A DNA stretch of 64,000 nucleotides from Sulfobacillus thermosulfidooxidans (lineage in GTDB: Bacteria > Bacillota > Sulfobacillia > Sulfobacillales > Sulfobacillaceae). Position 1 is the stretch's first letter. Every line of letters starts with the position of its first letter. The stretch lies in contig NZ_LGRO01000002.1 of assembly GCF_001280565.1 (NCBI RefSeq), forward strand, positions 434,001-498,000. Direction: 5' to 3'. Positions 34,138 through 50,961 of the stretch are shown here, piece by piece. The position numbers and the translations under genes are program-made. Below the pieces are notes generated by a model. That model saw only the letters and a list, made by a program, of their open reading frames with translations, was not told the origin of the DNA and ran no database searches.

Positions 34138-34829
34138 AACTCTTTAAACCGATATCCCACTCCCCGCACCGTTTCAATAAAACGCGGTGACTGCAAATCC
34201 TCTTGTAATTTTTCCCGCAGATGGCGGATATGGACGTCGACTGTACGGGCATCGCCAAAGAAATCTTGTCCCCACACTTTGACCAGCAAATCATCCCGAG
34301 TGAATGCCCGTCCAGGGTTCTTCGCCAGAATCGATAACAATTCAAATTCTGTAAACGTCAACGGCAAAGGCGTCCCGTCCAGCAAAACCTCCCGTTTGTC
34401 AAATTCGATTTTCAAGCCATAATGTTCCACGACTTCGGGTTCTGTGGTATCTTTGTCCGCTGGCCGTTTCACTCGCCTGAGAATCGCCTTGACTCTGGCC
34501 ACCAATTCCCGCGGAGAAAAAGGCTTCGTCACATAATCATCGGCTCCCAGTTCCAATCCTAATATCCGGTCGAGTTCGTCTTTACGGGCTGTCAGCATGA
34601 TTACAGGAATGTCGGTTTCATGCCGAATTGAACGACACACATCAAGTCCTGAGAGTCCCGGTAACATGACATCTAAAACCACCAGGTCCGGTTTATCCTG
34701 CAAAGCGCGTTTGAGCCCTTGTTGTCCATCATATTCAGTAAGCACATCAAAGCCTTCACGTCTTAAATTGTAAGCCACTAATTCAACAATGGCTTTTTCA
34801 TCATCCACGACCAACACCCGTTGCGGCAT
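34134..34829 (-). CDS. phoP: Response regulator PhoP/PhoB-like
   Basis: OmpR-type transcription factor of 231 residues. The receiver domain has the acidic pocket (VDDEKA), phospho-Asp in LVVLDVMLPG, Thr in VIMLTARK and Lys in YVTKPFSPRE. The winged-helix DNA-binding domain (about 130-230) has TRDDLLVKVWG and RTVDVHIRHLREKL. It probably activates this operon when phosphate is scarce. GAGAGGAGG precedes the ATG inside the end of the upstream gene, a 29-base overlap. Confidence 0.95.
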   Translation of the reverse strand: MPQRVLVVDDEKAIVELVAYNLRREGFDVLTEYDGQQGLKRALQDKPDLVVLDVMLPGLSGLDVCRSIRHETDIPVIMLTARKDELDRILGLELGADDYVTKPFSPRELVARVKAILRRVKRPADKDTTEPEVVEHYGLKIEFDKREVLLDGTPLPLTFTEFELLSILAKNPGRAFTRDDLLVKVWGQDFFGDARTVDVHIRHLREKLQEDLQSPRFIETVRGVGYRFKEL

Positions 34830-35712
34830 GATGTCCTCCTCTCTCGACTTGGGAAGGTAAGACTCGTGACGACGATTCGCTCGTCAAAGTCTCAGAACGC
34901 GTCTTAAGCCTAAAATGCCTAGCTTCAACATCTAATGCCAGCACATTTAACGCCGTCATCTCCTCGATCGCCTGGCGAATATGCGTTTGTACCTCTTCCA
35001 ATAACGCAAATAACTGGAACTGACGACTCACGCCTAGTTCCACAGTAATACTCACTCCAGCAGGCGCACTTTGAACGACCACCCGGTAAACATGGGACAC
35101 ATCTCGACTTTGGCGTGCCGCATGAATGACAATCGCCGTAATCACGGTATCAGAAATATAAAATCGCCCCAATCCTGAATAGGTCGGACGCACAATCGAT
35201 TTTTCCACAAACACGGACCGGCCTTTGCGTCGAAAGATAAACCGCAATGGATCGATTAAGTATCCAGAAAAACTTTTCCGCACTTCCATCGTCGGAGCAG
35301 GAATCACATGCTTGCCTTGTTCTCGACGGATCTTTTGTGCTAAGGCCCGTTCCTCTGGGGACGCGACCGTTTCAATGGGAATCCACATCACCGAATCCGG
35401 GTCCAAATGGAGAGCATGCACAATATGGTTGACCATATTCACCGAGGTACCAAGAATCAATAAGGATGACAGGTTTAAGCGAGCAATCGCTTGACGGACC
35501 GAAGCCGCGTGCTCGGGATCAGAAAAAATGGCACGTTTCACAGCCGCGACCCGAGTCGCTTCCCGCTTCGCAGAATATCCCGCAACAATACGACCATCTG
35601 CAATTAATAGCCCATCATCGATAATCGCTTCGGCATTCTTTTCAATTGCCACCATTGAGGCTCGGTGGCTCTTACCTGTGCCACTCGGACCAATTAACGC
35701 ATAAATTTTCAT
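34801..35712 (-). CDS. P-loop NTPase fused to Asp23/Gls24-like domain
   Basis: A 303-residue cytoplasmic protein in two parts. Residues 1-165 form a nucleotide-binding region with Walker A GPSGTGKS (8-15), DDGLLIADGR and a kinase-like body. Residues 168-272 resemble the Asp23/Gls24 (DUF322) fold, with VFVEKSIVRPTYSGLGRFYI, VYRVVVQSAPAGVSITVELG and a helix ending IRQAIEEMTAL. Asp23 proteins are linked to envelope stress. A hypothesis is phosphorylation or nucleotide sensing; the function is unknown. It is the first gene of the Pho operon, overlapping phoP by 29 bases. Confidence 0.7.
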   Translation of the reverse strand: MKIYALIGPSGTGKSHRASMVAIEKNAEAIIDDGLLIADGRIVAGYSAKREATRVAAVKRAIFSDPEHAASVRQAIARLNLSSLLILGTSVNMVNHIVHALHLDPDSVMWIPIETVASPEERALAQKIRREQGKHVIPAPTMEVRKSFSGYLIDPLRFIFRRKGRSVFVEKSIVRPTYSGLGRFYISDTVITAIVIHAARQSRDVSHVYRVVVQSAPAGVSITVELGVSRQFQLFALLEEVQTHIRQAIEEMTALNVLALDVEARHFRLKTRSETLTSESSSRVLPSQVERGGHHAATGVGRG

Positions 35713-35816: not shown

Positions 35817-36950
35817 TCAATCGTTAAATAGGGTGGTTGACGAATCCATCGGTTCTTGTCCTGCCCGGACAACCAACTCGTGAACGAGTCTTTGACGCCA
35901 GGGCACGAATCGCCATTCAATGTGTTCGTGGCGCGCATGCGCTCCCTGCCCTACCGCTCCTAACCCGTCTAAGGTTGGTGTGATAGCCGCCGTAAAATTC
36001 CCATCGCTGGCGCCGCCCACATTAATTCCAGCTAATGGCTTCCCCCGCACGCTTTCCCAGATTTCCGCGGCTTGGCGAAACCACTGCTCCGCCACCGGAC
36101 CATGGTCCATTGGCGGCCGGTTAAACCCTCCTACGTACCGGGTTGAGGTCCTCGTGTCAAACTGAGGCGGCGCATTCAAAGTCTTTTCAATCCGCTCTTG
36201 CTCTTTTTGCGTTTTGACCCGGATATCGATTTCAGCAACCGCCGATGCTGCCACCACATTGGTCGTATTGCCCCCTTTGACCACCCCTACATTGATGGTT
36301 GTCCCAAGAACACGATTTTCTAAACTCGCCAGCCACAATATTTGTTGAGCCAATTCCCGAATGGCACTTGCTCCCTGATCCGGGTCGAGACCGGCATGGC
36401 TTTCAATGCCGGTAATCTCCATTCGGAAATTGCCAACACCGGATCGGCCAATTTTTAATGCACCTTCATTGCCTCCGGGCTCTAAAACGAGTGTCACCGA
36501 TGCCTTTCGAGCCTTCTCTTCAATTAGCTGTCGGCTCAGCGCACTACCAATTTCTTCATCTGGAGTAATCAACCAGCAAAAAGGAACATCGGCAGGCACA
36601 TCGTATAAAGCGCCGACGCCAATCACTAAACCGGCTTTCATGTCCAAAACGCCTGGTCCAAAAATGCGGTCTCCTTGTATCTGCAAGGGCATCGTCTTGA
36701 GAGTACCCAGCGGCCAGACGGTATCAGCGTGCGCCAGTAATAGGGGACCTTGGCGCCCAGGCATTATTCGGAAAATCTCAAGAATCGGACCATGCTCGGT
36801 AAAATGCCACTGGTATTGAAGAGAAAGAGGCTTTAAGGCGTCAAGAACCCGTTCCTGCACTTGGCGGATTCCTTGGACATACCGCGATGGCGATTCAATA
36901 TGCACCAAGTCAGCCAATAGCTTTTTCCCCTGGTTATCATCCCAAGTCAA
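35817..36950 (-). CDS. M20 family peptidase/deacylase (ArgE/CPG2 type)
   Basis: Zinc-dependent amidohydrolase of about 377 residues. Metal residues: His in LLAHADTVWP, Asp in GVLDMKAG, the general-base Glu pair in TPDEEIG, Glu in VLEPGG, and His in GQGAHARHEH. A dimerisation domain sits between. It stands behind an enolase-superfamily racemase and a GNAT, and in such clusters it removes the succinyl group from N-succinyl-L-amino acids. The start is probably TTG at 36950, ten bases after AAAGGAGG; the frame opens upstream at 37016 in the racemase gene. Confidence 0.82.
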   Translation of the reverse strand: MTWDDNQGKKLLADLVHIESPSRYVQGIRQVQERVLDALKPLSLQYQWHFTEHGPILEIFRIMPGRQGPLLLAHADTVWPLGTLKTMPLQIQGDRIFGPGVLDMKAGLVIGVGALYDVPADVPFCWLITPDEEIGSALSRQLIEEKARKASVTLVLEPGGNEGALKIGRSGVGNFRMEITGIESHAGLDPDQGASAIRELAQQILWLASLENRVLGTTINVGVVKGGNTTNVVAASAVAEIDIRVKTQKEQERIEKTLNAPPQFDTRTSTRYVGGFNRPPMDHGPVAEQWFRQAAEIWESVRGKPLAGINVGGASDGNFTAAITPTLDGLGAVGQGAHARHEHIEWRFVPWRQRLVHELVVRAGQEPMDSSTTLFND

Positions 36951-38106
36951 GTTCCGGAAACCTCCTTTTGAGGTTGAGATCATCCATGCCACCAGCAATT
37001 TTCCACGTTTCTTCATACGTACAGACTTCTTGCATACGCTTCGGATCCAAATTGACGCCGATGCCAGGACCCTTGGGAACGGTTAAGGTTCCATCACCAT
37101 TTAATACAAAAGGTTCTGTAATAATATCTTGCCAAAAATAGCGGTCACTCGCGGAGGTATCGCCTGGTAAGGTAAATCCCGCTAAAGTCGTTAAATGAAG
37201 ATTATGAGCCCGTCCAATCCCTGTTTCCAACATGCCCCCACACCATAGTGGAATATGATGCTGCCGGGCAAATGCTTCAATGGCTAATGACGGGCCATAA
37301 CCGCCTACACGCCCTACTTTTAAGTTAATGATGCCGAGCGCTCCTAATTCCCACGCTTTTCTAACATCATCAGCCGAATGAATGGACTCATCCAGACAAA
37401 TGGGAGTCGAAAGCGTTTTTGCCAACGTCGCGTGATCAACAATATCATCATAGGCAAGGGGTTGTTCGATCATCATCAAATGCAGGTCCTCAAAATCTTT
37501 GAAATGATCTCGCTCAGCGAGACGATAAGCCGAGTTCGCGTCGGCCATTATAGGAACCTCATCTCCAAGACGTGCGCGTAACATGCGCAAGGGGATTATG
37601 TCCCAACCCGGTCGAATTTTGATTTTCAGTCGTCGGTAGCCTTGCTTCCAATAGGTTTCTGCGACGGAGCCTAGTTGTTCGAGATTGTCTTGAATGCCAA
37701 TGGATACCCCAACAGGAATCCGGTCTACCTCACGACCTCCTAACAAACGATACAAAGGCTGGCGCTCAGATTTGGCAAACCAGTCCCATATCGCCATTTC
37801 CACAGCCGCTTTCGCCATGCGATTGCCGCGTATACTTTGTAAGCGGACGGAAATCTCCCGAGGGTCCGTGATGTCTCCTTGTAAGCGGGGAATAATGGCA
37901 TCACGGATGGCGTAATAGACGGATGCATGGGTTTCCTCACTGTATAAGGGCCAATCCGATGCTACCGATTCCGCATAGCCTTCAATGCCGTCTCCGCGCA
38001 CCGTAATGATCCACGCACGCTTTGTGTCTTCGCGGCCAAAGGAAGTGGCAAAGGGTGTTTTCAACGGCAGTGAAATGAATTGTAATTGAATTTCTTCTAG
38101 ACGCAT
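36937..38106 (-). CDS. N-succinylamino acid racemase / o-succinylbenzoate synthase family
   Basis: Enolase-superfamily enzyme of about 389 residues. The catalytic KxK is in LKIKIRPGWD, the metal ligands are ADANSAY, MIEQPL and CLDES, and the second catalytic Lys is in INLKVGRVGG. WCGGMLETGIGRA is typical of the NSAR/OSBS group, which can racemise N-succinylamino acids and make o-succinylbenzoate. With no other menaquinone genes here and a GNAT and an M20 enzyme adjacent, the NSAR role is favoured. AAGGGGAT precedes the ATG at 38106; the longer frame lacks a site. Confidence 0.85.
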   Translation of the reverse strand: MRLEEIQLQFISLPLKTPFATSFGREDTKRAWIITVRGDGIEGYAESVASDWPLYSEETHASVYYAIRDAIIPRLQGDITDPREISVRLQSIRGNRMAKAAVEMAIWDWFAKSERQPLYRLLGGREVDRIPVGVSIGIQDNLEQLGSVAETYWKQGYRRLKIKIRPGWDIIPLRMLRARLGDEVPIMADANSAYRLAERDHFKDFEDLHLMMIEQPLAYDDIVDHATLAKTLSTPICLDESIHSADDVRKAWELGALGIINLKVGRVGGYGPSLAIEAFARQHHIPLWCGGMLETGIGRAHNLHLTTLAGFTLPGDTSASDRYFWQDIITEPFVLNGDGTLTVPKGPGIGVNLDPKRMQEVCTYEETWKIAGGMDDLNLKRRFPELDLG

Positions 38107-38110
38107 ACAT

Positions 38111-38836
38111 TTATCCCCTTCGCGTTTCTCGAGTCTCGCCGAGCCTTGGTTTATCACTGCATACATAACATAATCGTCCTTGAGGCGATCTCGCCAGCCC
38201 CAGCACCGAAAAGGCATCTTGTGAAAACTGGGTCACGTAATATTCAGCCCACCACATGGCCTTAGAAGGGTCTTGTTGACGTAATACCGCTATATTTTCC
38301 GGAATCGGGATAAGTTTCTTGGCCGTCTTGTTCGATGTCGCCGGCCAATTCGGATTAAGCCCCACAAAAAAGCGATGAGTAGGCCATGCCCCATTAATCG
38401 CGTCATGTAACACACCATAATAGTTGGGATAAAATTCTAAAACTCGAGCTTTTAATATACCGAGATTTAACTGGGCGTTACGCCGTTGCAGAGGATCAAA
38501 AGTCCATCCTACAAACTCATATCCTTGGTCCAGGGCCCATTTCAACTGATACGATTTCATTTGCCGGCCAATACCTTGACTGCGGTAGGGGGGTAACACC
38601 GCCATCATATGGGAATGCAAATACCATAACCCATGATACCGGGCCGGAAAAGCAGCGGACATGGCAATCATGTTATGTTCCTCATCATATGCCCCTAAAA
38701 TGAGTCCCCCGTGATCCGCAAATACCCTTAATAAACTCACAGGCGTACTATGTCCATGGCGCCACACGTTTTGTTCAATATGCAGAACTTGTTGCAATTC
38801 CTCGTCCGTCTGTAACGACCGAATCGTCACGGGCAT
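38111..38836 (-). CDS. GNAT family N-acyltransferase (COG3375-like)
   Basis: A 241-residue GNAT protein with the CoA-binding signature PPYRSQGIGRQMKSYQ (Q/RxxGxG/A) and a following Trp-rich segment EFVGWTFDPLQRRNAQLNLG. It stands five bases before the racemase gene. In the published Geobacillus case such a protein is the succinyl-CoA:D-amino acid N-succinyltransferase that makes the racemase substrate; here that is inferred from context. GGACTGGAGT lies before the ATG. Confidence 0.78.
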   Translation of the reverse strand: MPVTIRSLQTDEELQQVLHIEQNVWRHGHSTPVSLLRVFADHGGLILGAYDEEHNMIAMSAAFPARYHGLWYLHSHMMAVLPPYRSQGIGRQMKSYQLKWALDQGYEFVGWTFDPLQRRNAQLNLGILKARVLEFYPNYYGVLHDAINGAWPTHRFFVGLNPNWPATSNKTAKKLIPIPENIAVLRQQDPSKAMWWAEYYVTQFSQDAFSVLGLARSPQGRLCYVCSDKPRLGETRETRRG

Positions 38837-38851: not shown

Positions 38852-39331
38852 TCACGCATATGGTAGAAGTTGTTGAATAATGCGAGCCGTTGCTCCCCAA
38901 ATTGTGCCGATATCACTTCGATATGCTATGCCGTAAGGGCCCTTGTAACATCCAGCTCGGAGATCTCGCCAAGAAATCCAAACCGCTTCAGTCACCTCTT
39001 GGGGATTAGGGGTCAACGCAACCTTGTGAGAAGTGGCAACAAGCCAAGGCCATATCCAATATTTCGACGCCTTTACGACGACCGGAGTTAGACATCCCAA
39101 GCACTGAGTGGCTGTCAATAAAATTCCGACTTCCTCTTCAGTTTCTCGCATTGCCGTCTCCCATAGGCTTTCATCCCCGGCCTCCCTTTTCCCGCCGGGA
39201 AAACCCATCTCGAGGGGATGTTCCTTCATCCATGAAGGCCGCTTAATAAAGAGCATCCACCAATCATCTTGATCATAAGCAACAAGTACACTTACCGAAG
39301 CGGCTTTAAATCCCAAGGGTGGCTCCCACAC
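38852..39331 (-). CDS. Nudix hydrolase, CoA pyrophosphatase-like
   Basis: A 159-residue Nudix protein. The Nudix box reads GFPGGKREAGDESLWETAMRE then TEEEVGI, with Asp where most have Glu in the Gx5E part, as is common in CoA/acyl-CoA diphosphatases. The role may be hydrolysis of CoA derivatives, which would suit the CoA-using GNAT 15 bases downstream, but this is inference. The start is GTG with AGGGAG before it. It lies next to the IS element. Confidence 0.8.
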   Translation of the reverse strand: MWEPPLGFKAASVSVLVAYDQDDWWMLFIKRPSWMKEHPLEMGFPGGKREAGDESLWETAMRETEEEVGILLTATQCLGCLTPVVVKASKYWIWPWLVATSHKVALTPNPQEVTEAVWISWRDLRAGCYKGPYGIAYRSDIGTIWGATARIIQQLLPYA

Positions 39332-39376: not shown

Positions 39377-39425
39377 ATGCGGCAAGAAGTCTCCTATCCT
39401 CTCTAGGTGGGAGATGAATTGCCGC
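39377..39425 (+). repeat. IS605-type left-end hairpin
   Basis: GCGGCAA pairs with TTGCCGC, enclosing an imperfect TCTCCTA/TAGGTGGGAGA stem. TnpA of this family recognises such subterminal hairpins in single-stranded DNA. Confidence 0.65.
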
Positions 39426-39499
39426 CTTCAAAGCATTGCTTACAACATACACATCGTCATGGTATAACCAGTTGTATAGTTGTATTTGACGGTGATGCT

Positions 39500-39901
39500 G
39501 TGGAATTGGATAGTAATAATCATTCAGTGTTCTTGATGTGCTATCACCTTATCCTTGTGATAAAGTATCGTCGAAAAGTCATTGACGATCAAATATCGAA
39601 TCGTCTCAAAGAAATATTTGAGTATATTGCACCAACTTACCATGTGGCATTGCAGGAATGGAATCACGATAAAGATCACGTGCATATTTTGTTCAAAGCA
39701 CAGCCGAACAGTGAATTGTCGAAGTTCATCAATGCCTATAAGAGTGCATCATCTCGCCTCATCAAAAAAGACTACCCGCGCATAAGAAAATCCCTATGGA
39801 AAGAGTATTTTTGGTCAAGAAGTTTTTGTTTGCTTACAACAGGTGGTGCGCCGATTGAAATGGTTAGCCGATATATTGAAAGTCAGGGGAAAAAAATATG
39901 A
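39500..39901 (+). CDS. tnpA: Y1 HUH transposase TnpA (IS200/IS605)
   Basis: Single-strand transposase of 133 residues. The HUH motif is in HDKDHVHILF, and the catalytic Tyr is in SRYIESQGKK near the C-terminus. The GTG at 39500 gives the familiar N-terminus ELDSNNHSVF followed by YHLILVIKYRRKVID; the open frame is 31 codons longer but does not resemble the family there. It appears intact. Its TGA overlaps the tnpB ATG. Confidence 0.92.
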   Translation: MELDSNNHSVFLMCYHLILVIKYRRKVIDDQISNRLKEIFEYIAPTYHVALQEWNHDKDHVHILFKAQPNSELSKFINAYKSASSRLIKKDYPRIRKSLWKEYFWSRSFCLLTTGGAPIEMVSRYIESQGKKI

Positions 39902-41022
39902 ATAAAGCATTCAAATATCGCATCGACCCGAGCGTTGAACAAGAAAGTCTCATCAATAAAACGTTTGGTTGTGTCCGTTTCATTTATAATCGAATGCTTG
40001 CGAATCGTAAGGAAATCTATGAGCAATGCAAGGATGACAAAGAATCTCTGAAACAACAAAGATATTTACTTCCAGCCGATTTCAAAAAAGAGTTTAAGTG
40101 GCTCAAAGAAGTGGATAGTTTGGCTTTGGTAAATGCACAACTCAATTTGCAGGCAGCGTATCGGAATTTCTTCCGAGATAAGTCCGTAGGATTTCCGCAG
40201 TTCAAAAGTAAGCATCGTGATAAGTTGTCCTATACAACGAACAATCAAGGCGGCACGATTCGGTTAATAGATAATAAGACGCTTCGATTGCCCAAACTAA
40301 AAGATGTGCGAATTAAGCTTCATCGTTCCTTACCGTAGGGGTCTGTGATTAAGTCTGCAACTATTAGTAAAACCCCAACGGGTAAATATTATGTTTCCCT
40401 ATTGGTTGAGTTCGAGATGAGTAGTCAGCCCGTGGCACCCGTAACAGAAACGGTATTAGGATTGGATTATTCGTCGAAATCTTTGGTTATTGATAGTCAA
40501 GGAAATTCTGTGGATTACCCCAAGTTCTATCGTCAAGCCGAGGCGAAACTGAAGAAGGCTCAACGTAAATTATCCCAACGTAAAAAAGGCCGTAAGAACC
40601 GTGAAAAGCAACGTCGTAAAGTGGCTAAACTGCACGAAAAAGTGGCCAATCAGCGCAAAGACTTCTTGCATAAACTCTCTAGGCAGATAGCCAATGCCTA
40701 TACAGCAGTTGTGATAGAAGACGTAAATATGCGTGATATGGCTCAAAGCCTTAATTTAGGAAAGTCTACGAACGATAATGGATTCGGGATGTTCAAAACT
40801 TTTCTGGCATACAAACTGGCTGATCAAGGGAAACAACTTGTTGTCATAGACAAATGGTTTCCGTCTAGTAAACGGTGTCGATTCTGTCAAAAAGACAACA
40901 AACCGTTGACATTGGCGGATCGAGTGTGGATATGTCCGCATTGTGGGGCAGAGTTAGACAGAGACATCAATGCAGCCATCAACATCAAAAATGAAGGGTG
41001 TCGGATACTGGGTATCGCCTAA
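39898..41022 (+). pseudogene. tnpB: TnpB RNA-guided nuclease gene with an in-frame amber codon
   Basis: Full-length TnpB coding frame of about 374 codons, ancestor-type relative of Cas12. The RuvC parts are present: LGLDYSSKS (first Asp), VVIEDVNMRDM (Glu) and DRDINAAINIKNEG (last Asp). The zinc ribbon is CRFCQKDNKP then CPHCG. A single TAG at 40336-40338, after LHRSLP, splits the protein into an N-terminal part and a part restartable at GTG 40345. The rest is undamaged, so the mutation is recent, is suppressed, or produces two polypeptides. The flanks and frame are otherwise continuous. Confidence 0.85.
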
Positions 41023-41424: not shown

Positions 41425-43440
41425 ATGAGAACCATAGCAGGCGACGACCTGTTTCGTTTTAAATTAGGCGGTGATATTCAGATTTGTCCCGGTAGGAAAC
41501 TTGCCGTCTATGTGGAAAATCAGGCTGATCGCAAAACTAACAGTTATCATACCCGGCTCATAAAAATTTGGCCGGGCGAAAAACCCGAACCCTTTACACA
41601 AGGTCCGCATGATCAAGCGCCCCAATTTTCGCCCGATGGCGAGTGGCTTGCCTTCATATCCAAGCGCAGTGGACAAAAACAAATTTGGATTATGTCTACC
41701 GCAGGCGGAGAAGCCCAACAAATTTCCCATATTGATGGCGGCATTGAGTCCTTTATTTGGGCGCCCGATTCCCGCACCCTCTACGCCACGGCGCTGTTAA
41801 CCGATGCCGGTATTGTGGATGAGACCGCTACGGATAATGACGACGACTATGTAAAATTCAATAAAGATGTTAAAGTCATCACGGAATTATCGCATAAAAT
41901 GGATGGGATTGGATTCTACGGGACAAGACGTCCCCACATTATACGTTTATCCCGTGATGGTGCTAACCCTGTACAGTTAACCTTTGGGCCATACCGCCAT
42001 AGTCAACTGGCTATCTCCCCTGATGGCCACCAACTATTTTTTAGCTCACGTTATGGCGAAGACTACGACCGCGAATCCTTTGAACATCATATCTATGTCC
42101 TCGATGTGTCGGACACACAATCGTCTAAACCTGGAGAACCCCAGCGCGTCTCGCCGCCAGGTCTTAGTGCCGCATCTCCCACCATGCATCCTCATGGCGA
42201 GTACCTTTTCTTTATCGGTACACGGACTGAAGATTTGGGATATGACAACCCGTCTTTATATGTCGTCCCCTTAACTCATCCGGATCAAATCCACATGATT
42301 GCGCCGTGGTGGGACCGGCCCTTTGCTGACGAATCCTTATCGGATATGTTAGGCCCCGCTAGTAACCCCCTGCGCTTTGATGCCGATGGCTCCCATATTT
42401 TCTCGTTAACTAGCTATAACGGCACTGTGCAACTGGCTCGCATTGACTGGCAACATGATCAAGTGGAATTACTCACCAAGGGCGACCATGTCTATTACAG
42501 TTACGATATCTCCTCCGATGGACAGCTCGCGATCTTGGCGAAAAATTCTCCCACCAACCCTTCACAAATTGAATGGTTGGAATCATCCGCATCGTCTTAT
42601 GACACCCAATTATTAACGAATCCTAATCAGGAACTATTATCATCTTTAAAGCTTTCAACACCGACACGATTCCATTATCATGCGGAAAACGGTCCGGAAA
42701 TCGATGGTTGGGTCCTTCCTCCTATCGACCGCGAAGAGGGGAAGAAATATCCGGCCGTACTTGAAATTCATGGCGGGCCCATGATGATGTACGCGGACAG
42801 CTTTTTCCTCGAATTTCAGTGGTTGGCCGCTCACGGTTACGGTGTCATTTACACTAACCCTCGGGGTTCCCAAGGTTATGGTCGAGAATTTTGCTTAGCT
42901 ATTCAACACGAATGGGGAAATCTTGACTATCAGGACATCATGGCAGGGCTTGAGACCGCATTAGCAGAAAACCCTTGGATCGACAAAGACCGCCTCGCTG
43001 TGGCTGGAGGCTCTTATGGCGGCTATATGACGAACTGGATTGTTGGGCACACAAACCGGTTTAAGGCGGCTATCACCATGCGTTCGGTGGTCGACTGGAA
43101 AGCCATGGTCGGCACCGGAGATGGAGGATGGCACTGGATGCGCCGCGCACATGACCAAAAGCCATGGCAGTCGGATGATCAATGGTATCGTCAACAAAGT
43201 CCGATTACTTATGTCGAGAATATCACCACGCCTTTGCTTATTGAGCATCAAGAAGGTGACTTACGTTGCCCAATAGAACAAGGCGAAATCCTGTACACCG
43301 CCGTCAAATATCTTAATAAGGCGCCCGTGAAATTCATCCGCTATCCCGAGGAATTTCACGGTATGAGTCGTAATGGCAAACCCTGGCACCGTATCTTTCG
43401 CCTCAACAGTTTCACCGATTGGTTAGCCCAATATGTTTAA
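41425..43440 (+). CDS. S9 family prolyl oligopeptidase/acylaminoacyl peptidase
   Basis: A 671-residue serine peptidase with an N-terminal seven-bladed propeller region (WD40-like PD40 repeats such as PQFSPDGEWLAFIS) and a C-terminal alpha/beta hydrolase. The nucleophile is in AVAGGSYGGYMTNW; the Asp is probably in HQEGDLRCP and the His in EEFHGMSRNG. Such enzymes clip short or N-acylated peptides. No signal peptide is seen, so it is cytoplasmic. GGGAGG lies 12 bases before the ATG. It likely works with the other peptidases in this region. Confidence 0.93.
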   Translation: MRTIAGDDLFRFKLGGDIQICPGRKLAVYVENQADRKTNSYHTRLIKIWPGEKPEPFTQGPHDQAPQFSPDGEWLAFISKRSGQKQIWIMSTAGGEAQQISHIDGGIESFIWAPDSRTLYATALLTDAGIVDETATDNDDDYVKFNKDVKVITELSHKMDGIGFYGTRRPHIIRLSRDGANPVQLTFGPYRHSQLAISPDGHQLFFSSRYGEDYDRESFEHHIYVLDVSDTQSSKPGEPQRVSPPGLSAASPTMHPHGEYLFFIGTRTEDLGYDNPSLYVVPLTHPDQIHMIAPWWDRPFADESLSDMLGPASNPLRFDADGSHIFSLTSYNGTVQLARIDWQHDQVELLTKGDHVYYSYDISSDGQLAILAKNSPTNPSQIEWLESSASSYDTQLLTNPNQELLSSLKLSTPTRFHYHAENGPEIDGWVLPPIDREEGKKYPAVLEIHGGPMMMYADSFFLEFQWLAAHGYGVIYTNPRGSQGYGREFCLAIQHEWGNLDYQDIMAGLETALAENPWIDKDRLAVAGGSYGGYMTNWIVGHTNRFKAAITMRSVVDWKAMVGTGDGGWHWMRRAHDQKPWQSDDQWYRQQSPITYVENITTPLLIEHQEGDLRCPIEQGEILYTAVKYLNKAPVKFIRYPEEFHGMSRNGKPWHRIFRLNSFTDWLAQYV

Positions 43441-43452
43441 CTTCTATCCTGT

Positions 43453-43480
43453 GCCCAGCTGGCATTTTACGCAGCTGGGC
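43453..43480. terminator. Hairpin between convergent genes
   Basis: GCCCAGCTG and CAGCTGGGC form a 9-bp stem around a 10-base loop between the S9 peptidase and MFS stops. No T run follows on either strand, so termination is uncertain. Confidence 0.45.
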
Positions 43481-43486
43481 CCTATC

Positions 43487-44893
43487 TCATGGAATTTTCT
43501 GACAATCATATGCTTCATCTCCCTTGTGGGAGGGATCGACTTGCAAGGTGAGATATATCGCTGCCAACAAAAAACTTACCACCGCAGTGGCGATCCATAT
43601 CATCCCCAACCGTTCATGATCTAATATGAGAGCAGCCAACAGGGGTGCCAAGGGCGTGCCCAATTGCACAAAGCCTCCGAGAAAGCCAAAGAGACGTCCT
43701 CGCAGATTCAAAGGGGTCGCTCGCATAAATAACGTGTTTTTCAAGGCGTTACTGGCGCTGTTCGCGTATCCAGCTCCCATGAAGGCCGCTAGACTCACAC
43801 CCATGTTTGGAGACAAAACAAATACCATAAAGCACAGCCCTTGAACACACGCAGCACCCGCAGCCGTCGTTTTGACCGGAAAATTCTGAAAGCGGGGCAC
43901 CGTCATCGCCCCCAGAATCTGCCCGACCGACCACATGATTAAAAATAGGCTATAGCGAAGAGCCGTTGCATGGAAACGGTGTTTGATAAAAGCGGATAAA
44001 AGCAAAAAGGACGCCGAAAAAACGATGTTGATCAGGACGCTAGCCGGCGCGAAGGTCATCAGCCACCGCACGCGCCAGAATATCGAGAATTCGGCCAAAA
44101 ACCGGCGGTTCAGAACATTTTTCGATATGGTTACCGGACTTTCAGCCCGGTTGTGTATCCAGCCTAACAAGAGCGCACTGATGACAAAGGTCGCGGCATC
44201 AGTCCACAATACCGCACTGAATCGTAGAGAAGCCATGATTAATCCGCCCAATAATTGCCCGGCAATTCGGCCGGAATGATTGACGGTGGTAATAATCCCG
44301 TTACCAGCCAAAAGGTCGTCGGCCTCGACGATCTGTGCCATCAGTGCCATGCGGGCGGGATCATAGACAGCATCTGCTAAAGCGACCATGCCCAAACTCG
44401 CGATCCCGATAAAGACGGTGGCATCCATGTTGCAGTGACTGACGCCTAACGCGGCTCCCATCAAGACGATTCCGCGAAACAGGTCAAGAGACATCATGGA
44501 TCGGCGCAACGGCACGTGATCGGCCACCCATCCGCCTATCATCGTGAGAATCCGCGGAATCATCACAACCAGACCCAGGAGAGGCAGAAAGTGCACATCC
44601 AACATGGTAATCCGCCACACCACGGCGACGGAGAGCGCGGCGTCGCCGAGTGTGGAAAAGAAGAGACCCAGTGCAAGTTTGCCGAAATCGTGATTTCTTC
44701 TCAGAAGCGCCAATGCGGGATCAGAACGAGTGGCCAAAGGTGTCCACCACACTTTCTCGAGAGACGTTGGGAAACAATCCTTCTTTAATCGTGTTGACAC
44801 CCCAAGGAACACTGCATCGAGGAACACCCATATTCGCCATAAGCAGTCGGGTGAGGAAATCCCTTGCATGATTCCCGGAACCACGTGAATCAC
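43487..44893 (-). CDS. MFS transporter (MFS_3/EntS-like)
   Basis: A membrane protein of up to 468 residues with about eleven or twelve helices. The first helix begins near FGKLALGLFFSTLGD, and the loop GGWVADHVPLRRSMM matches the MFS loop 2-3 motif. DPARMALMAQIVEADDLLAGNG is typical of the MFS_3 branch that exports siderophores, antibiotics or other compounds. The true start is uncertain: about 70 residues before helix 1 are unusual, and no good ribosome binding site marks one of the ATG or GTG codons. The substrate is unknown. Confidence 0.78.
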   Translation of the reverse strand: MIHVVPGIMQGISSPDCLWRIWVFLDAVFLGVSTRLKKDCFPTSLEKVWWTPLATRSDPALALLRRNHDFGKLALGLFFSTLGDAALSVAVVWRITMLDVHFLPLLGLVVMIPRILTMIGGWVADHVPLRRSMMSLDLFRGIVLMGAALGVSHCNMDATVFIGIASLGMVALADAVYDPARMALMAQIVEADDLLAGNGIITTVNHSGRIAGQLLGGLIMASLRFSAVLWTDAATFVISALLLGWIHNRAESPVTISKNVLNRRFLAEFSIFWRVRWLMTFAPASVLINIVFSASFLLLSAFIKHRFHATALRYSLFLIMWSVGQILGAMTVPRFQNFPVKTTAAGAACVQGLCFMVFVLSPNMGVSLAAFMGAGYANSASNALKNTLFMRATPLNLRGRLFGFLGGFVQLGTPLAPLLAALILDHERLGMIWIATAVVSFLLAAIYLTLQVDPSHKGDEAYDCQKIP

Positions 44894-44910
44894 TCAAATG
44901 TCAGAAAAGT

Positions 44911-45048
44911 TCACGCATTACCAAGCCTTTCGGCCGTCTTGACAAACTGGAAAAAATTTAAGGGTGCCGCCTGCCAACTCCCATTAGCAATACGTCTGGA
45001 GGCGTAGGCATTCCCTTTGCTAATAATAATTTTATCAGGATGTGCCAT
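44911..45048 (-). CDS. Small ORF, 45 residues, unknown
   Basis: An ATG-to-TGA frame of 45 codons reading MAHPDKIIISKGNAYASR and later FFQFVKTAERLGNA. The composition looks like a folded protein, but I recognise no family and the ATG lacks a clear ribosome binding site. It lies between the decayed IS200 tnpA and the MFS gene and may be a fragment of something larger. Confidence 0.3.
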   Translation of the reverse strand: MAHPDKIIISKGNAYASRRIANGSWQAAPLNFFQFVKTAERLGNA

Positions 45049-45071
45049 TTTACGGCGTTACCCCGCAGGGA

Positions 45072-45339
45072 TCAATGTGGAGTTTCTTACTGTCCGATGT
45101 ATTGCTTGATGATCGACAGGGAAGATCCCCCAGTCGATCCGGCAAAATAAGTCGGCGACCAGAGGTTCCCGCCCCATAGGCTCGCTCCCTGCGCGGTAGG
45201 ACTTCTGACGGACCCGGCGGGATGAGACGCGCTGAAGGCGATTCCCCGGTCGAGAAATCACGACCTTAGGCGGGGCAGCGATGAACCCATGTCCATGGTC
45301 CCTCTCGCCGTCGAATCCGTCCCGCGGGGCGGTTTTCAA
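45072..45339 (-). pseudogene. Decayed IS200-type tnpA fragment
   Basis: The 5' part reads DGERDHGHGFIAAPPKVVI and then SSRRVRQ, matching the HUH region of IS200 transposases. A frame change follows, and the 3' part reads LWSPTYFAGSTGGSS and SIIKQYIGQ, the catalytic tyrosine region. A TAA at 45089-45087 replaces what is probably a Gln codon, and the text resumes ETPH to a TGA at 45074-45072. The N-terminal third is missing. It is unrelated in sequence to the intact tnpA at 39500. Confidence 0.65.
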
Positions 45340-45420
45340 CGCTCACGCCTCTTGACGCGCTTTTTGTGCAGATAGCTCATTGCTCCGAGAAAAGAGTGTC
45401 GAACTGCCCCTATCGTCACC

Positions 45421-45543
45421 CTAGACAAGACAGTGGGAAATTACCAAGACCGCGCCGTTATCCGTGCCAGCAACACCAACAGCTCTGATTAAGGCATCGT
45501 TACCGTTTTTTAACTGTTTTAAAGCCTTGTGAATCCCATTCAT
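45421..45543 (-). CDS. Small ORF, 40 residues, unknown
   Basis: A frame reading MNGIHKALKQLKNGNDALIR and ending NGAVLVISHCLV, from ATG to TAG. An overlapping frame has a better ribosome binding site (CAGGAGG) but stops after 20 codons, so this may be the remains of one gene after a frameshift. No family is recognised. Confidence 0.25.
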   Translation of the reverse strand: MNGIHKALKQLKNGNDALIRAVGVAGTDNGAVLVISHCLV

Positions 45544-45637
45544 CGTACACAAAGAAGAGCATGGCGATCCTCCTGAGGCCGAACATGATAGCTCTCACAC
45601 CCCGAAATTTCTGATGAACGATGAGGCCAATAACGTG

Positions 45638-46606
45638 TCAATGCGGACCCCCTCTCCCATGGGTGGTCTTTAAACTAGGTAGATAGGACGGAGCATACAA
45701 ATGGCCCCAGCGAGATAAAAACGCATATAAATGCTCAGCATAATCAAATGGGACCACCTTAAATGCCTGAATATGCCCCGCTCCCCGAACAAGCCATAAC
45801 CTCGCATTGGGATCGGTCTTTTGCGCCTTGTGATACAGGTCCACGGCATTATGAACTGGCACTAAAGGATCTCGCTTTCCCGCAATGATGAGCAACGGGC
45901 GATCGCCAAGTTGCCTTAAATGTTGGGCGGGATTGGCATCGTCCAAAGAGAGATGCGCCACACGAGGCAATACCGTCATGAGAACGGGTTGGAATATGCT
46001 GCGGGGCAAGTACTGCCAAATCGGCAAATCCTCTTCCAAGTACCGTTTTAAACTATCATAGGGACTATCGGCAATAATTCCAGAAACGTGGGAATTCGAT
46101 TCGGCCGTCAGAAGGGCTGTGGAAGCCCCCATCGAATAGCCTAATAAAATGATATGACTGCCTGGGGCCAAATATCTGCTGGTATAATCAACCGCCATAT
46201 TTAAATCTTGCGACTCTAATGCGCCAATCGTCACCATATGGCCTTGTGATAACCCATGCGCACGAAAATCAAAATCTAAGACACTAACTCCCATATCATG
46301 AAGAACCCGAATCACAGCCAATAAAGGAATACAAGGTTCGGAGCGGTTGGATGAATAACCATGCGCAATAATAACCGTAACAGAGTGATTCGACGGTTGG
46401 GGAATCCACCATCCAGATAGCACTAGGGGATGTCCAAAATGCACCGATTGGTAGGCCATTCCCCAGCCCCAAGGATTTCCCACCACCGGTGACCGTCTGG
46501 GATGTAAAAACATCCATCCAGCGACAAGCTCGTATATCGTAGCCACCACAAAAACAACTAACGCCATAATTAGCCCTTTTTTAAGGACACGTGCCATATT
46601 CTTCAC
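45638..46606 (-). CDS. Alpha/beta hydrolase, membrane-anchored
   Basis: A 322-residue hydrolase with one N-terminal membrane helix (about residues 10-32). The nucleophile elbow is LLGYSMGAST. HGYSSNRSE provides the oxyanion loop (HG), an Asp is in AGKRDPLVP and the His in RGAGHIQAF. It resembles BEM46/YqkD-like hydrolases of unknown substrate. Its GTG start overlaps the TGA of the upstream hydrolase gene (GTGA), so the two are coupled. Confidence 0.82.
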   Translation of the reverse strand: MKNMARVLKKGLIMALVVFVVATIYELVAGWMFLHPRRSPVVGNPWGWGMAYQSVHFGHPLVLSGWWIPQPSNHSVTVIIAHGYSSNRSEPCIPLLAVIRVLHDMGVSVLDFDFRAHGLSQGHMVTIGALESQDLNMAVDYTSRYLAPGSHIILLGYSMGASTALLTAESNSHVSGIIADSPYDSLKRYLEEDLPIWQYLPRSIFQPVLMTVLPRVAHLSLDDANPAQHLRQLGDRPLLIIAGKRDPLVPVHNAVDLYHKAQKTDPNARLWLVRGAGHIQAFKVVPFDYAEHLYAFLSRWGHLYAPSYLPSLKTTHGRGGPH

Positions 46607-47460
46607 GATTCTTTTTCCTTATGCTGAATCATTTGATAGGCTTCATTTAATAGCCCGATAAACCTATCGAGATCATAGTCATAGGGAAGATGGCCGGCGC
46701 CCGGAAGTACGAGAAGAGGAAATGCCGAACCAATGGCTTCACGCACCTTTGGCAACGGAAACAAAATATCGCGATCCCCATGAATGACCACAGTAGGCAC
46801 TCGACTCTGAGCAATGTCTTCCACGAAATTCGGTGCAGCATAAAATTCTCGCATCCGAGCCATCTCTTTAGCCCGCCGCCACCCATAGCGCATCCGTTCG
46901 CGCGTGATAGGCGGGATCTGGGAAGGATTCAGTCCTAAAGCTTGTAACATCCGGTCCCCATAAAAGTCAAAACTCGTTATCCAAATGCCAATACGGTTAA
47001 GCCACGTCCATGGCAAGGTTTTCATAGCATTGTCAGGCGGAAAATAGCCTGCACTCGCCACTAACACTAATCCCCCCACATCTTGGGGATAATGGCTGAC
47101 CACGCTCCCTGCCACCATCCCACCAAAAGAATGCCCCACCAAAATTGGCCGCACCAGGTGCAACTGTTCTATGAGTTGATGCACTGCTTCCCGAAAATCA
47201 TCTAACGTCTGCACGAAAGGGGGCAACATGGAATCGCCAAATCCCGGTAAATCCACTGCAAGATATTGTCCGGGCACAGGTCTGCGTACCAATAGATCGG
47301 CAAACGCCCACCGTGATGATCCCATGCCGTGGATAAATATCCAGGGTGGGCGTTCACTCTGACCTGGCCACAAGGAATACACCAAGCGAAGAGGGCGATC
47401 TCTTAGAAGAATGACCGTCGTCTGTTTTCTTGGATCGGCAAGCACGTTTGTCACCACCAA
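46603..47460 (-). CDS. Alpha/beta hydrolase
   Basis: A 285-residue soluble hydrolase of the haloperoxidase/esterase type. IFIHGMGSSRWAF is the HG oxyanion motif, ILVGHSFGGMVAG the nucleophile elbow, VIHGDRDILFP the Asp region and LPGAGHLPYDYD the His region. A cap domain lies between. The substrate is unknown. It overlaps the CAP protein gene by ten bases and the second hydrolase by four, implying an operon. Confidence 0.85.
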   Translation of the reverse strand: MVVTNVLADPRKQTTVILLRDRPLRLVYSLWPGQSERPPWIFIHGMGSSRWAFADLLVRRPVPGQYLAVDLPGFGDSMLPPFVQTLDDFREAVHQLIEQLHLVRPILVGHSFGGMVAGSVVSHYPQDVGGLVLVASAGYFPPDNAMKTLPWTWLNRIGIWITSFDFYGDRMLQALGLNPSQIPPITRERMRYGWRRAKEMARMREFYAAPNFVEDIAQSRVPTVVIHGDRDILFPLPKVREAIGSAFPLLVLPGAGHLPYDYDLDRFIGLLNEAYQMIQHKEKES

Positions 47461-49010
47461 AATTGCGCACTGTTTCCACTAGCTGTTATGGCTTCAAATA
47501 TTTCTTTACGAGGCGGTTTGGGGATACGGCACGATACCAAACCTTCACCATTGGTCACTCCCTGTCCCACAACCATGGAATGCTCAGGGGAAACGGCACG
47601 ATAGATGCGGACCGCTTCCCCTTGAATCGGAACACCACTACCCGCTTTAACCACAGAAATCGTCACGATACCGGATGAACGCGGTTCTACAGCGACTGAT
47701 TGATCACTACCTCCCGTTGTAAAATGCCAACTTAAGCGGATGGGATGCACACTTTGATTATTAAAATGGGCATTGGCCGTCACCGACACCTGATATTGGC
47801 TATCGGGTCGTAGCACCTGAGAAGGAACAATGCCCACCTGATTGCTAGCCATGTCGTGAAGACCCGGTTCATCAACAACCGCCGGGAGTGTGACATTGCC
47901 CCATGTAATCTCAGCATGCACGTCACTAAGTTGTTGCACCGTGGGAAAGTCCACGGTAATAGGGTATCCAAATTGCTTTGAAAATCCTCCCACTACCGGG
48001 CTCGGACTTTCCATATCTATCCATCCCGTGGGAACTCCATGCTGTCCCGGCGCTGGATAGACCACGGCAAATGGCAATGTGGAGCGGTATCCAAAGCCTA
48101 GGTCCATGACCACGGCTCCTGTTGGACCTGTACTTTCGCCTGTTCCCATCGCCACCGCATTAGGGGATAAAATAGACAATCGGTGAAAAACCGTATCGAC
48201 AAGGTTTTGAATAACCGCAACGGGCGCCATGGGAACACTCCACTCAATACCGACTTCACCATCTAGCGGCGTGGGCCAGCCAAAAGTCATGTCACGGTCC
48301 CACGGATTTCGTCCTGTAAAATCAGGTTTGAAAGGCTCTTCAAGATGAAATGACGGGGCATGATAGCCATTTTGCTGCACATAGCGCGCATGAGCGGCAG
48401 CAGCCCAAGTCAGTCCCTTGCTCCAGGACACGGGCGCCTCATACAAACGGCTCCGTACAGCATTTAACGCCCTAATAAAATTCTTTTGATCAGCAGTTGC
48501 TAAATAAGGCTGGAGACTTTGTTGTTGAGCCGTCGACCACGGCTTGACGGTAATCGACCACGTAGAAAGCGGGGTTTGGAACCCTGGGGTTATAAAACGA
48601 ACCGTATAACGACCTGGCAATAAGGGTCTCTTCAAGTGAACCCCGACAAATCCATTGGACTCATAGCGCAGTGGGCTCGTGTGGATGAGACCTTTGCTGC
48701 CGATAAGTTGTAACTGAAAGTTGTCTGCTTTTAAGATCCCAGGATTATCCCCAATAAACTGAACGCCGACAAATTTCGGTGAACGGATCGCGGTATAGGA
48801 ATTGGGAATAATTGGGCTAATTGTATTAGCCGATTCATAACCATAATTGGTTTGGGTCGAATCCGGGCCAAATATCGTTGCCGGAGCGGGAAGAATTCCA
48901 TCCGTTGCTGGCGGTATCACAAAGCTTGTGACGCCGGCATCAAGACGACTACCGCCAAAAGCCAACAATAACACCATAACGATTTTGCCGAGTCGAGGAA
49001 TTCCAGCCAC
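47451..49010 (-). CDS. Secreted CAP (SCP/PR1)-domain protein
   Basis: A 519-residue exported protein. A signal peptide (about residues 1-25) is followed by an N-terminal beta region with a YTVRFITPGF strand pattern, a CAP domain (about 175-310: LNAVRSRLYEAPVSWSKGL, HARYVQQNGYHAPSFHLEE, GEVGIEWS) and C-terminal Ig-like beta domains with LSWHFTTGG and IQGEAVRIYR. Bacterial CAP proteins act outside the cell; some bind lipids or peptidoglycan or are proteases, so function is open. The GTG start follows AGGAGG after five bases. It precedes two hydrolase genes. Confidence 0.8.
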   Translation of the reverse strand: MAGIPRLGKIVMVLLLAFGGSRLDAGVTSFVIPPATDGILPAPATIFGPDSTQTNYGYESANTISPIIPNSYTAIRSPKFVGVQFIGDNPGILKADNFQLQLIGSKGLIHTSPLRYESNGFVGVHLKRPLLPGRYTVRFITPGFQTPLSTWSITVKPWSTAQQQSLQPYLATADQKNFIRALNAVRSRLYEAPVSWSKGLTWAAAAHARYVQQNGYHAPSFHLEEPFKPDFTGRNPWDRDMTFGWPTPLDGEVGIEWSVPMAPVAVIQNLVDTVFHRLSILSPNAVAMGTGESTGPTGAVVMDLGFGYRSTLPFAVVYPAPGQHGVPTGWIDMESPSPVVGGFSKQFGYPITVDFPTVQQLSDVHAEITWGNVTLPAVVDEPGLHDMASNQVGIVPSQVLRPDSQYQVSVTANAHFNNQSVHPIRLSWHFTTGGSDQSVAVEPRSSGIVTISVVKAGSGVPIQGEAVRIYRAVSPEHSMVVGQGVTNGEGLVSCRIPKPPRKEIFEAITASGNSAQFWW

Positions 49011-49076
49011 TCAGTCCTCCTGAAATGTCTTTGCCCTGGTTGAGTTTAGGTCAATTTTCCCGCTATTATTCTAGAC

Positions 49077-49370
49077 CTATAACCGACCTTTCGCATTGAG
49101 TTCGGCTAAAATCGCTCGAATCTGTTCCGGATCTAGTGGTCCGGCTGCTTGTTCAATTCCATCTACCACCCCGCATGCGCTAACGACACGAGCGACTTGG
49201 CTGAGTGCCCCAGAAATCGCCGCCAATTGAGTCAAAATAGCTTTGCAATCCTCGTCGCGCTCAAGCATGGCCTGGACGCCACGTGCTTGGCCTTCGATCC
49301 GACGCATACGGCGTATTAAATCGTCTCGGTCCCAATATTTCGCAATGACAGGGCGTTTTTCTGTGTCCAT
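49077..49370 (-). CDS. CsoR/RcnR-family (DUF156) regulator, atypical ligands
   Basis: A 97-residue all-helical repressor of the CsoR type. RRIEGQARGVQAM and DCKAILTQLAAISGAL match the family. The first ligand Cys is present (Cys42). The His expected at +25 is Gly67, and the Cys expected at +29 is Gly71; instead Cys66 stands at +24. Canonical copper (Cys-His-Cys) sensing is therefore unlikely; a thiol-based or other signal is possible. GAGGGG lies before the ATG. A perfect inverted repeat stands 87 bases upstream. Confidence 0.85.
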   Translation of the reverse strand: MDTEKRPVIAKYWDRDDLIRRMRRIEGQARGVQAMLERDEDCKAILTQLAAISGALSQVARVVSACGVVDGIEQAAGPLDPEQIRAILAELNAKGRL

Positions 49371-49731
49371 ACTTTACCCCTCACCGCCCTTTGCCGTCTC
49401 TAGGATATCCGGCTCATCGTGAAAAAATGCCGTTACATCTTCATATTATATACCCTACCCGGTATGAAGACGAGATACCGGGTGAGGAGCCAATAATTTC
49501 AACCTTTTCAGGTGATCTTCTGAAACTTGAAACATCTTTGAAACAACTTCCGTGTTTAATAACATCAACAACCATAGTTATTCATCTATCTCCTAGAAAC
49601 TCTTGACTGATGAATAGATGACACGGCGTTTGTAAAGTTTAAACATTTTGATTGTGTGTAATAACTGACACGGATTCTTGTGTTTTTTGAAGTGTTCATT
49701 TGCATGGTTATTTTCAAGGAGGGGTAATAAG
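49371..49731. other. Regulatory stretch between CsoR-like gene and zinc-ribbon gene
   Basis: 361 bases without a gene. It contains the inverted repeat at 49457-49483, a minus-strand TATAAT at 49450-49445, and a looser inverted repeat TCATCTAT/ATAGATGA near 49582-49613. I see no transcript signal for the plus-strand gene other than its ribosome binding site. Confidence 0.6.
49445..49483 (-). promoter_or_regulatory. Inverted-repeat operator with -10 box for the CsoR-like gene
   Basis: ACCCGGTAT (49457-49465) and ATACCGGGT (49475-49483) are perfect 9-bp arms around a 9-base spacer. On the minus strand the repeat is followed at 49450-49445 by TATAAT, so it would cover the -35 region of a promoter reading into the CsoR-like gene. 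GC-rich inverted repeats are typical operators of CsoR proteins, but the spacing here is longer than the classic one. Confidence 0.6.
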
Positions 49732-49926
49732 ATGCTAACAATTATGATTTGTCCCAAATGTCGGAGACATCCTCTTCGCACGGTCACCAACCATATTTCG
49801 GGAGACGTCTACAAAATCTGTGATAATTATCCGATCTGCTCTTATGTCGAGGATCTAGAACCGTGGATTCCGATTGACCTAATTAGCGCCGAACATCCAA
49901 CACCACCAATGAGTCACACGGCGTAA
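49732..49926 (+). CDS. Small zinc-ribbon-like protein
   Basis: A 64-residue protein with Cys pairs CPKC near the N-terminus and KICDNYPIC in the middle, spaced as in a topoisomerase-type zinc ribbon. The rest is unremarkable. GGAGGGG precedes the ATG. It is the only gene of its kind here; a DNA-binding or protein-binding role is only a guess. Confidence 0.6.
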   Translation: MLTIMICPKCRRHPLRTVTNHISGDVYKICDNYPICSYVEDLEPWIPIDLISAEHPTPPMSHTA

Positions 49927-50188
49927 GTTGCCGTCTGGCGTCCATTTCCATATACTAGAAAAGGGCTTTTGTCGATGAATAGGGAACAGATATAACGTAC
50001 GGCAGAGTACCCTCCAAATCTGCCGTACATTTTTGCTTTGGACATAGTTTATCAGGATGCGCCGTAAAACCTCGTCGTTCAGGGCAGGAATATCAGGCGC
50101 TACCGTGAAGCGGTTATTCTGGGTTCTCCTATTGCTCCATATCCCGGCGGATGATCGCGGAGGTTCAACCAAGAAAGGACGGAATCTT

Positions 50189-50791
50189 GTGATTTTGGTG
50201 ACATACTTTGATCCCTTTGGTGGTGATACGATCAATGTGTCCAAAGAAGTTGCCACCCGTCTTCCCCAGCGCGATTATATTGTCAGTGCTGAACTGAAAA
50301 CCAGTAAGCGCGACGTGGAACAACAAATTCCTGAATTGATCGCCAAAGTGCGTCCCGATGCCATTTTGGGTTTAGGACAGGCCGAAGGCCGTGTCGTACC
50401 AACTCTGGAGCGTGTTGGCATTAATCTGATTGATAGCCGTATCGAGGACAACCGACATGAACAATATCATGATGAGATGATTAGACCAGACGGTCCCCCG
50501 GCATATTTTAGTACGCTTCCCGTCCGTCGGATTGTCGAGACCGTTCACCAACACGGTTTGCCCATCGAATTGTCCTTGTCAGCGGGAGCGTTTATGTGCA
50601 ATCAGGCTTTATATCTTATGCGTCATAGCGCAAAGGACATCCCGGCAGGATTTTTGCATTTGCCTCTCTTACCTAGCCAAGCCGCCTCAAGACGGCATAT
50701 GCCAAGTATGGGATTAACGGACCAAATTGCCGTGGTCAGTATCGTCTTGGAAACCATTTGGCTATGGCTACAAGAAGAGGAGTCCCGGTGA
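50189..50791 (+). CDS. pcp: Pyroglutamyl-peptidase I
   Basis: Cysteine peptidase (C15) that removes N-terminal pyroglutamate, 200 residues. TYFDPFGGDTINVS is the N-terminal signature. The catalytic Cys137 is in SAGAFMCNQALY and His157 in GFLHLPLLPSQ. The frame is open further upstream, but GTG at 50189 follows AAAGGACGG, and residues before it are not like the family. It is directly upstream of tricorn protease, which fits a peptide-degradation role. Confidence 0.93.
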   Translation: MILVTYFDPFGGDTINVSKEVATRLPQRDYIVSAELKTSKRDVEQQIPELIAKVRPDAILGLGQAEGRVVPTLERVGINLIDSRIEDNRHEQYHDEMIRPDGPPAYFSTLPVRRIVETVHQHGLPIELSLSAGAFMCNQALYLMRHSAKDIPAGFLHLPLLPSQAASRRHMPSMGLTDQIAVVSIVLETIWLWLQEEESR

Positions 50792-50961
50792 CAGTCCCCA
50801 GGCGCGTAGGTCCTCTCTTCATCTGCCGCACGAGGGAGGAGGACCATCACAGGATCGATCTTTAAGCATCTCAGTATGTCTTTTTTCCCTATAACAAAAA
50901 CTGGACATAACCGATACGGAAATTGTCCGGGTTTCAAACGGCTCAATTAAGGAGGGTCATT

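Follow-up and report, generated by a model that had tools for sequence, protein, structure and literature searches.

The closest described counterpart of the locus presented here is that of Geobacillus kaustophilus, for which Sakai et al. reportedly described, in 2006, a cluster of genes for an M20 hydrolase, a GNAT N-succinyltransferase, and an N-succinylamino acid racemase (NSAR). In Geobacillus-like genomes, a name that we infer from racemase genes of seven genomes (3.4 to 3.7 Mb) that are 88 to 92% identical to a racemase probe, a single gene of the TIGR01928 subfamily lies inside an M20D-GNAT-NSAR cluster, and menD is also present. The N-acylamino acid racemase (NAAAR) of Deinococcus radiodurans (PDB accession number 1r0m), encoded on plasmid MP1, is a further relative and is 48% identical to the racemase of this study. 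A GNAT of the same family (25% identity, 76 bits) is encoded shortly downstream of it (locus L233, 5977 to 8815); however, genes for transporter binding proteins lie between the two, and no M20 gene is found in the annotated neighborhood. NSAR enzymes act on substrates with many different N-acyl groups (PMC7431475), and enzymes that catalyze both the NSAR reaction and the o-succinylbenzoate synthase (OSBS) reaction have been characterized (PMC4215206).

The window analyzed in this study is a stretch of 64,000 nucleotides from the genome of Sulfobacillus thermosulfidooxidans (3.83 Mb in three contigs, 99.98% complete). As shown in Table 1, it contains intact and adjacent genes for a GNAT, a racemase, and an M20 hydrolase, which follow a Nudix hydrolase gene in this order on the minus strand. 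The Nudix gene is separated from the GNAT gene by 15 bp and the GNAT stop codon from the racemase start by 4 bases, whereas the 5' part of the M20 gene, which starts at either 37016 or 36983, overlaps the end of the racemase gene by at most 80 bases. The racemase open reading frame as listed extends from 36937 to 38217, and its likely start is at 38106. Thus, coordinates, gaps, and family models agree with the tight trio of the original prediction; the span proposed for it (36000 to 38836) held the right genes but clipped the M20 gene short of its end at 35817 and left out the Nudix gene. Similar to the clusters of the Geobacillus-like genomes, in which the racemase (47% identity) and the GNAT (37% identity over 160 amino acids) are encoded side by side with an M20 hydrolase, the locus combines all three genes. 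On the other hand, the order in those clusters is M20-GNAT-racemase instead of GNAT-racemase-M20, their M20 hydrolase is of the M20D type instead of resembling carboxypeptidase G2 (CPG2), and the upstream Nudix gene is a feature of the window. Neither an RpiR nor a YkvI gene neighbors the operon, as such genes often do in further clusters of Bacilli. The grouping of the genes is far beyond chance: a GNAT gene adjoins the racemase gene at 29 of 41 loci from relatives of the organism and at 43 of 80 racemase-family loci from Bacilli, another 15 of which are men operons, with no locus being both. Promoter and terminator scans gave hits at chance level only.

Table 1. Genes of the operon and neighboring features of the window
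Feature	Position	Strand	Basis
Nudix hydrolase, with which the operon probably begins	38852-39331	-	PF00293, 55.1 bits
GNAT (241 aa), a putative succinyl-CoA:D-amino acid N-succinyltransferase	38111-38836	-	PF00583, orthology
Racemase/o-succinylbenzoate synthase, NSAR/OSBS subfamily, 389 aa	36937-38106	-	TIGR01928
M20 metallohydrolase, CPG2-like branch, predicted N-succinyl-L-amino acid deacylase	35817-37016	-	PF01546/PF07687
303-aa protein with a P-loop start	34801-35712	-	Weak Asp23-like tail, 23.0 bits (cut-off, 28)
TnpA/TnpB pair, IS200/IS605 type	39407-41022	+	

The position of the Nudix gene upstream of the GNAT gene is conserved in relatives, and its nearest NCBIfam model is CoA pyrophosphatase, which it matches with 57.3 bits, below the cut-off of 134. 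The inserted TnpA/TnpB pair separates the Nudix gene from an S9 peptidase gene; in a relative (G003, locus L038), these two genes adjoin without the pair. Homologues of the 303-aa protein on the other side of the operon almost always adjoin phoB-phoR in relatives. The peptidases encoded at 41425 to 54177 had been proposed to supply D-amino acids to the pathway, a proposal that found no support and was rejected, since these genes are on the opposite strand, lie beyond the insertion element, and nothing connects them with D-residues.

The racemase scores 309.7 bits with the TIGR01928 model (menC_lowGC_arch; cut-off, 200.65), and the closest proteins in the PDB are N-acylamino acid racemases (phmmer, 345 bits to 1r0m). 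The nearest solved structures are from Deinococcus, Thermus, and Amycolatopsis, and residue numbers counted from the likely start at 38106 coincide with the Amycolatopsis numbering. All of the catalytic residues are present, i.e., Lys161 and Lys163 of the KxK motif, the three metal ligands Asp189, Glu214, and Asp239, and Lys263 and Arg266. Lys263 and Arg266 are invariant in all 82 labeled rows of the family, including the MenC proteins encoded in men operons, and the catalytic residues, being present in every row, confirm the subfamily and cannot separate NSAR from OSBS. Arg266, Phe19, and position 293 were considered as discriminators between the two activities and were rejected as invariant or uninformative. 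The MenC proteins encoded in men operons of Bacilli and of g4 and g7, two genera within the organism's own family, share both the TIGR01928 subfamily and the catalytic residues with the racemase of the window, whereas their genes directly follow menE and form one group in the tree.

In a quick tree of 84 rows, in which two PDB rows have long branches, a single branch (SH-aLRT, 91) sets all 18 rows of MenC from men operons, including those of the two genera mentioned above, apart from the racemase of the window. In this phylogenetic comparison, which the original prediction had proposed, the latter groups with the GNAT-linked racemases of its relatives; an OSBS function would not require a place among the MenC proteins of men operons. 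The labels change less often along the tree than after shuffling (GNAT linkage, 11 versus 27 changes; men linkage, 1 versus 16). No NSAR cluster is present in G010, G013, and G021, relatives whose men operon includes menC (loci L075 to L077), and the menC copy in G010 is 42% identical to the racemase of the window. In these loci of g4 and g7, menC follows menE and groups with MenC of Bacilli, which suggests that the men operon was replaced or transferred.

The GNAT scores 30.7 bits with PF00583 (cut-off, 20.7). When the NSAR-linked GNAT of Cytobacillus firmus is used as the query, the single match in the genome is the GNAT of the operon (E = 2.4e-27), and the two are reciprocal best matches. 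The alignment of these GNATs contains 24 invariant columns, among which is the motif W-T-x-D-P-L-x(3)-N. The NSAR-linked GNATs of Bacilli and of the Geobacillus type reportedly catalyze N-succinylation, and the GNAT of the operon is predicted, from this relationship, to be a D-amino acid N-succinyltransferase, the acyl donor and the specificity for D-amino acids included. In a genome of the same genus (G006, locus L042), the Nudix, racemase, and M20 genes are kept, and no GNAT open reading frame was found between them (4768 to 5083).

These features are best explained by an operon for the conversion of D- to L-amino acids by the NSAR route, whose racemase is probably bifunctional and also serves menaquinone synthesis. 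In this route, the GNAT would N-succinylate a D-amino acid with succinyl-CoA, instead of an acetyl donor; the racemase would interconvert the N-succinyl-D and N-succinyl-L forms by proton transfer between two lysines; and the M20 hydrolase would hydrolyze succinate off the L form, which would draw the equilibrium toward the L-amino acid. The same active site of the racemase would dehydrate SHCHC to o-succinylbenzoate for the products of menF-D-H-B-E-A. All of these activities and substrates are predicted from sequence. Phylogeny, catalytic residues, and GNAT orthology support the NSAR pathway of the original prediction, which was nonetheless incomplete, having missed the probable OSBS role and the different identity of the M20 hydrolase.

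The M20 hydrolase is above the cut-offs of both PF01546 and PF07687, and its best structural relative is carboxypeptidase G2 (PDB accession number 1cg2; E = 1.3e-32), with which the residues of the zinc site (His, Asp, Glu-Glu, Glu, and His) are aligned; the site is intact. The nearest NCBIfam model is PRK06133, which is named "glutamate carboxypeptidase" (218.7 bits; cut-off, 349). The third gene of the clusters in Bacilli and in the Geobacillus-like genomes, on the other hand, encodes an M20D amidohydrolase (TIGR01891, 290 bits). By its sequence, the M20 hydrolase of the window is a member of the carboxypeptidase-G2-like branch and not a homologue of the Bacilli deacylase: its score with TIGR01891 is 46 bits, against a cut-off of 153.75, and a pairwise comparison with M20D of Bacilli gives 20 bits, i.e., no meaningful similarity. 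The gene is for this reason not assigned as an orthologue of that deacylase, and such orthology is not treated here as a requirement of the pathway. Among the relatives, an M20 gene follows the racemase gene at 21 loci, and G002 has a second racemase copy (locus L074) that is again followed by a gene for a CPG2-like M20 hydrolase; this recurrence supports a functional tie. Some genera have no M20 gene at the locus (L046, L058, and L064), and four M20D genes, each of which is a possible deacylase, are found elsewhere in the genome (loci L179 to L182), so that the removal of succinate by the M20 hydrolase of the window is proposed here as its predicted role. In other genera, a gene of approximately 300 codons for a protein similar to D-2-hydroxyacid dehydrogenases follows the M20 gene or takes its place (L044, 7646 to 8572; L058, 6020 to 6943; and similar loci), and it is possibly linked to the metabolism of D-amino acids or 2-oxo acids.

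The men genes bear on the second role of the racemase. The genome encodes menF-menD-menH-menB-menE-menA in one run, as confirmed by NCBIfam models, on a contig other than that of the racemase, and no menC is found inside this operon. The racemase is the only member of the OSBS family in the genome. The only other gene with an MR_MLE C-terminal domain was rejected as a second menC because it encodes L-rhamnonate dehydratase (640 bits; cut-off, 393), which leaves the racemase as the sole OSBS candidate and makes it most likely bifunctional. For Sulfobacillus relatives, the presence of menaquinones or demethylmenaquinones and of genes for the pathway has been reported (PMC8489842 and PMC4378227); the presence of menaquinone in the strain itself is assumed. 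Of 50 relatives with a completeness of 90% or more, all 32 genomes with menD contain the racemase family, as do 2 of the 18 without menD (Fisher's exact test, P = 3e-11). Five genomes (G006, G035, G038, G040, and G041) keep the racemase and menD with no GNAT match at an E value of 1e-8 or lower, whereas two (G042 and G048) keep the racemase and a GNAT without menD, and the ties of the racemase to menD and to the GNAT therefore show a double dissociation among the relatives. The original prediction had regarded a men operon lacking another menC as evidence against the NSAR function. Such an operon is indeed present, but the refutation does not follow, since the same arrangement occurs in the Geobacillus-like genomes and enzymes with both activities are known (PMC4215206).

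It is rather unlikely that the racemase is only the MenC of this lineage in vivo, with the NSAR reaction an idle side activity and the GNAT and the M20 hydrolase acting on other compounds. The strict co-occurrence with menD and the five genomes in which the racemase persists without a GNAT are what such an enzyme would leave, and the Amycolatopsis enzyme, originally called a racemase, was subsequently considered to be biologically an OSBS (PMC4215206). However, linkage to a GNAT gene recurs in relatives of the organism, in Bacilli, and in Deinococcus, the racemase is phylogenetically apart from MenC of men operons, and G042 and G048 retain it together with a GNAT where menD is missing. A slim chance is given to a GNAT that is an N-acetyltransferase, in a set of genes for the detoxification or salvage of N-acyl rather than N-succinyl amino acids, with glutamyl or other N-acyl-L-amino acids as substrates of the M20 hydrolase; the closest model and the best structural relative of the M20 hydrolase fit such a function, as does the acceptance of many N-acyl groups by NSAR enzymes (PMC7431475), whereas the GNAT shares its family with the NSAR-linked GNATs of Bacilli and of the Geobacillus-like genomes, for which N-succinylation has been reported. 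Slightly slimmer still is the chance of a racemase devoted to the NSAR reaction while an unrecognized, nonhomologous enzyme makes o-succinylbenzoate: its clustering with GNAT-linked racemases and its retention in the two genomes without menD would agree with this, but the men operon is complete apart from menC with no other OSBS candidate in the genome, every relative with menD carries the racemase family, and MqnA/MqnD-family (futalosine) genes were not found in the genome.

With a bifunctional racemase as the preferred reading, what is known of the locus is the Geobacillus-type pathway, and what is new is the different branch of the M20 hydrolase together with the probable use of the racemase as MenC. 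A comparable arrangement is seen in Bacilli, in which 7 of the 19 genomes with the cluster have a single TIGR01928 gene and menD, and eight have an extra copy adjacent to menE. There is about an even chance that, in this lineage, a CPG2-like M20 hydrolase has taken over the third NSAR step and that two unlinked pathways select at the same time on one bifunctional racemase, of which some natural relatives have retained a single role. If this is true, the relatives with only one role each would allow the division of an ancestral generalist to be tested. The men operon without menC predicts a dual role and is no argument against the NSAR function. The NSAR/OSBS enzymes serve as a standard model for the acquisition of new functions by promiscuous enzymes, and this lineage offers close relatives whose racemase is linked to menaquinone alone, to the N-succinyl pathway alone, or to the two together, in addition to sister genera with a dedicated menC; i.e., it is a natural comparison set for asking which of the two roles constrains the racemase.
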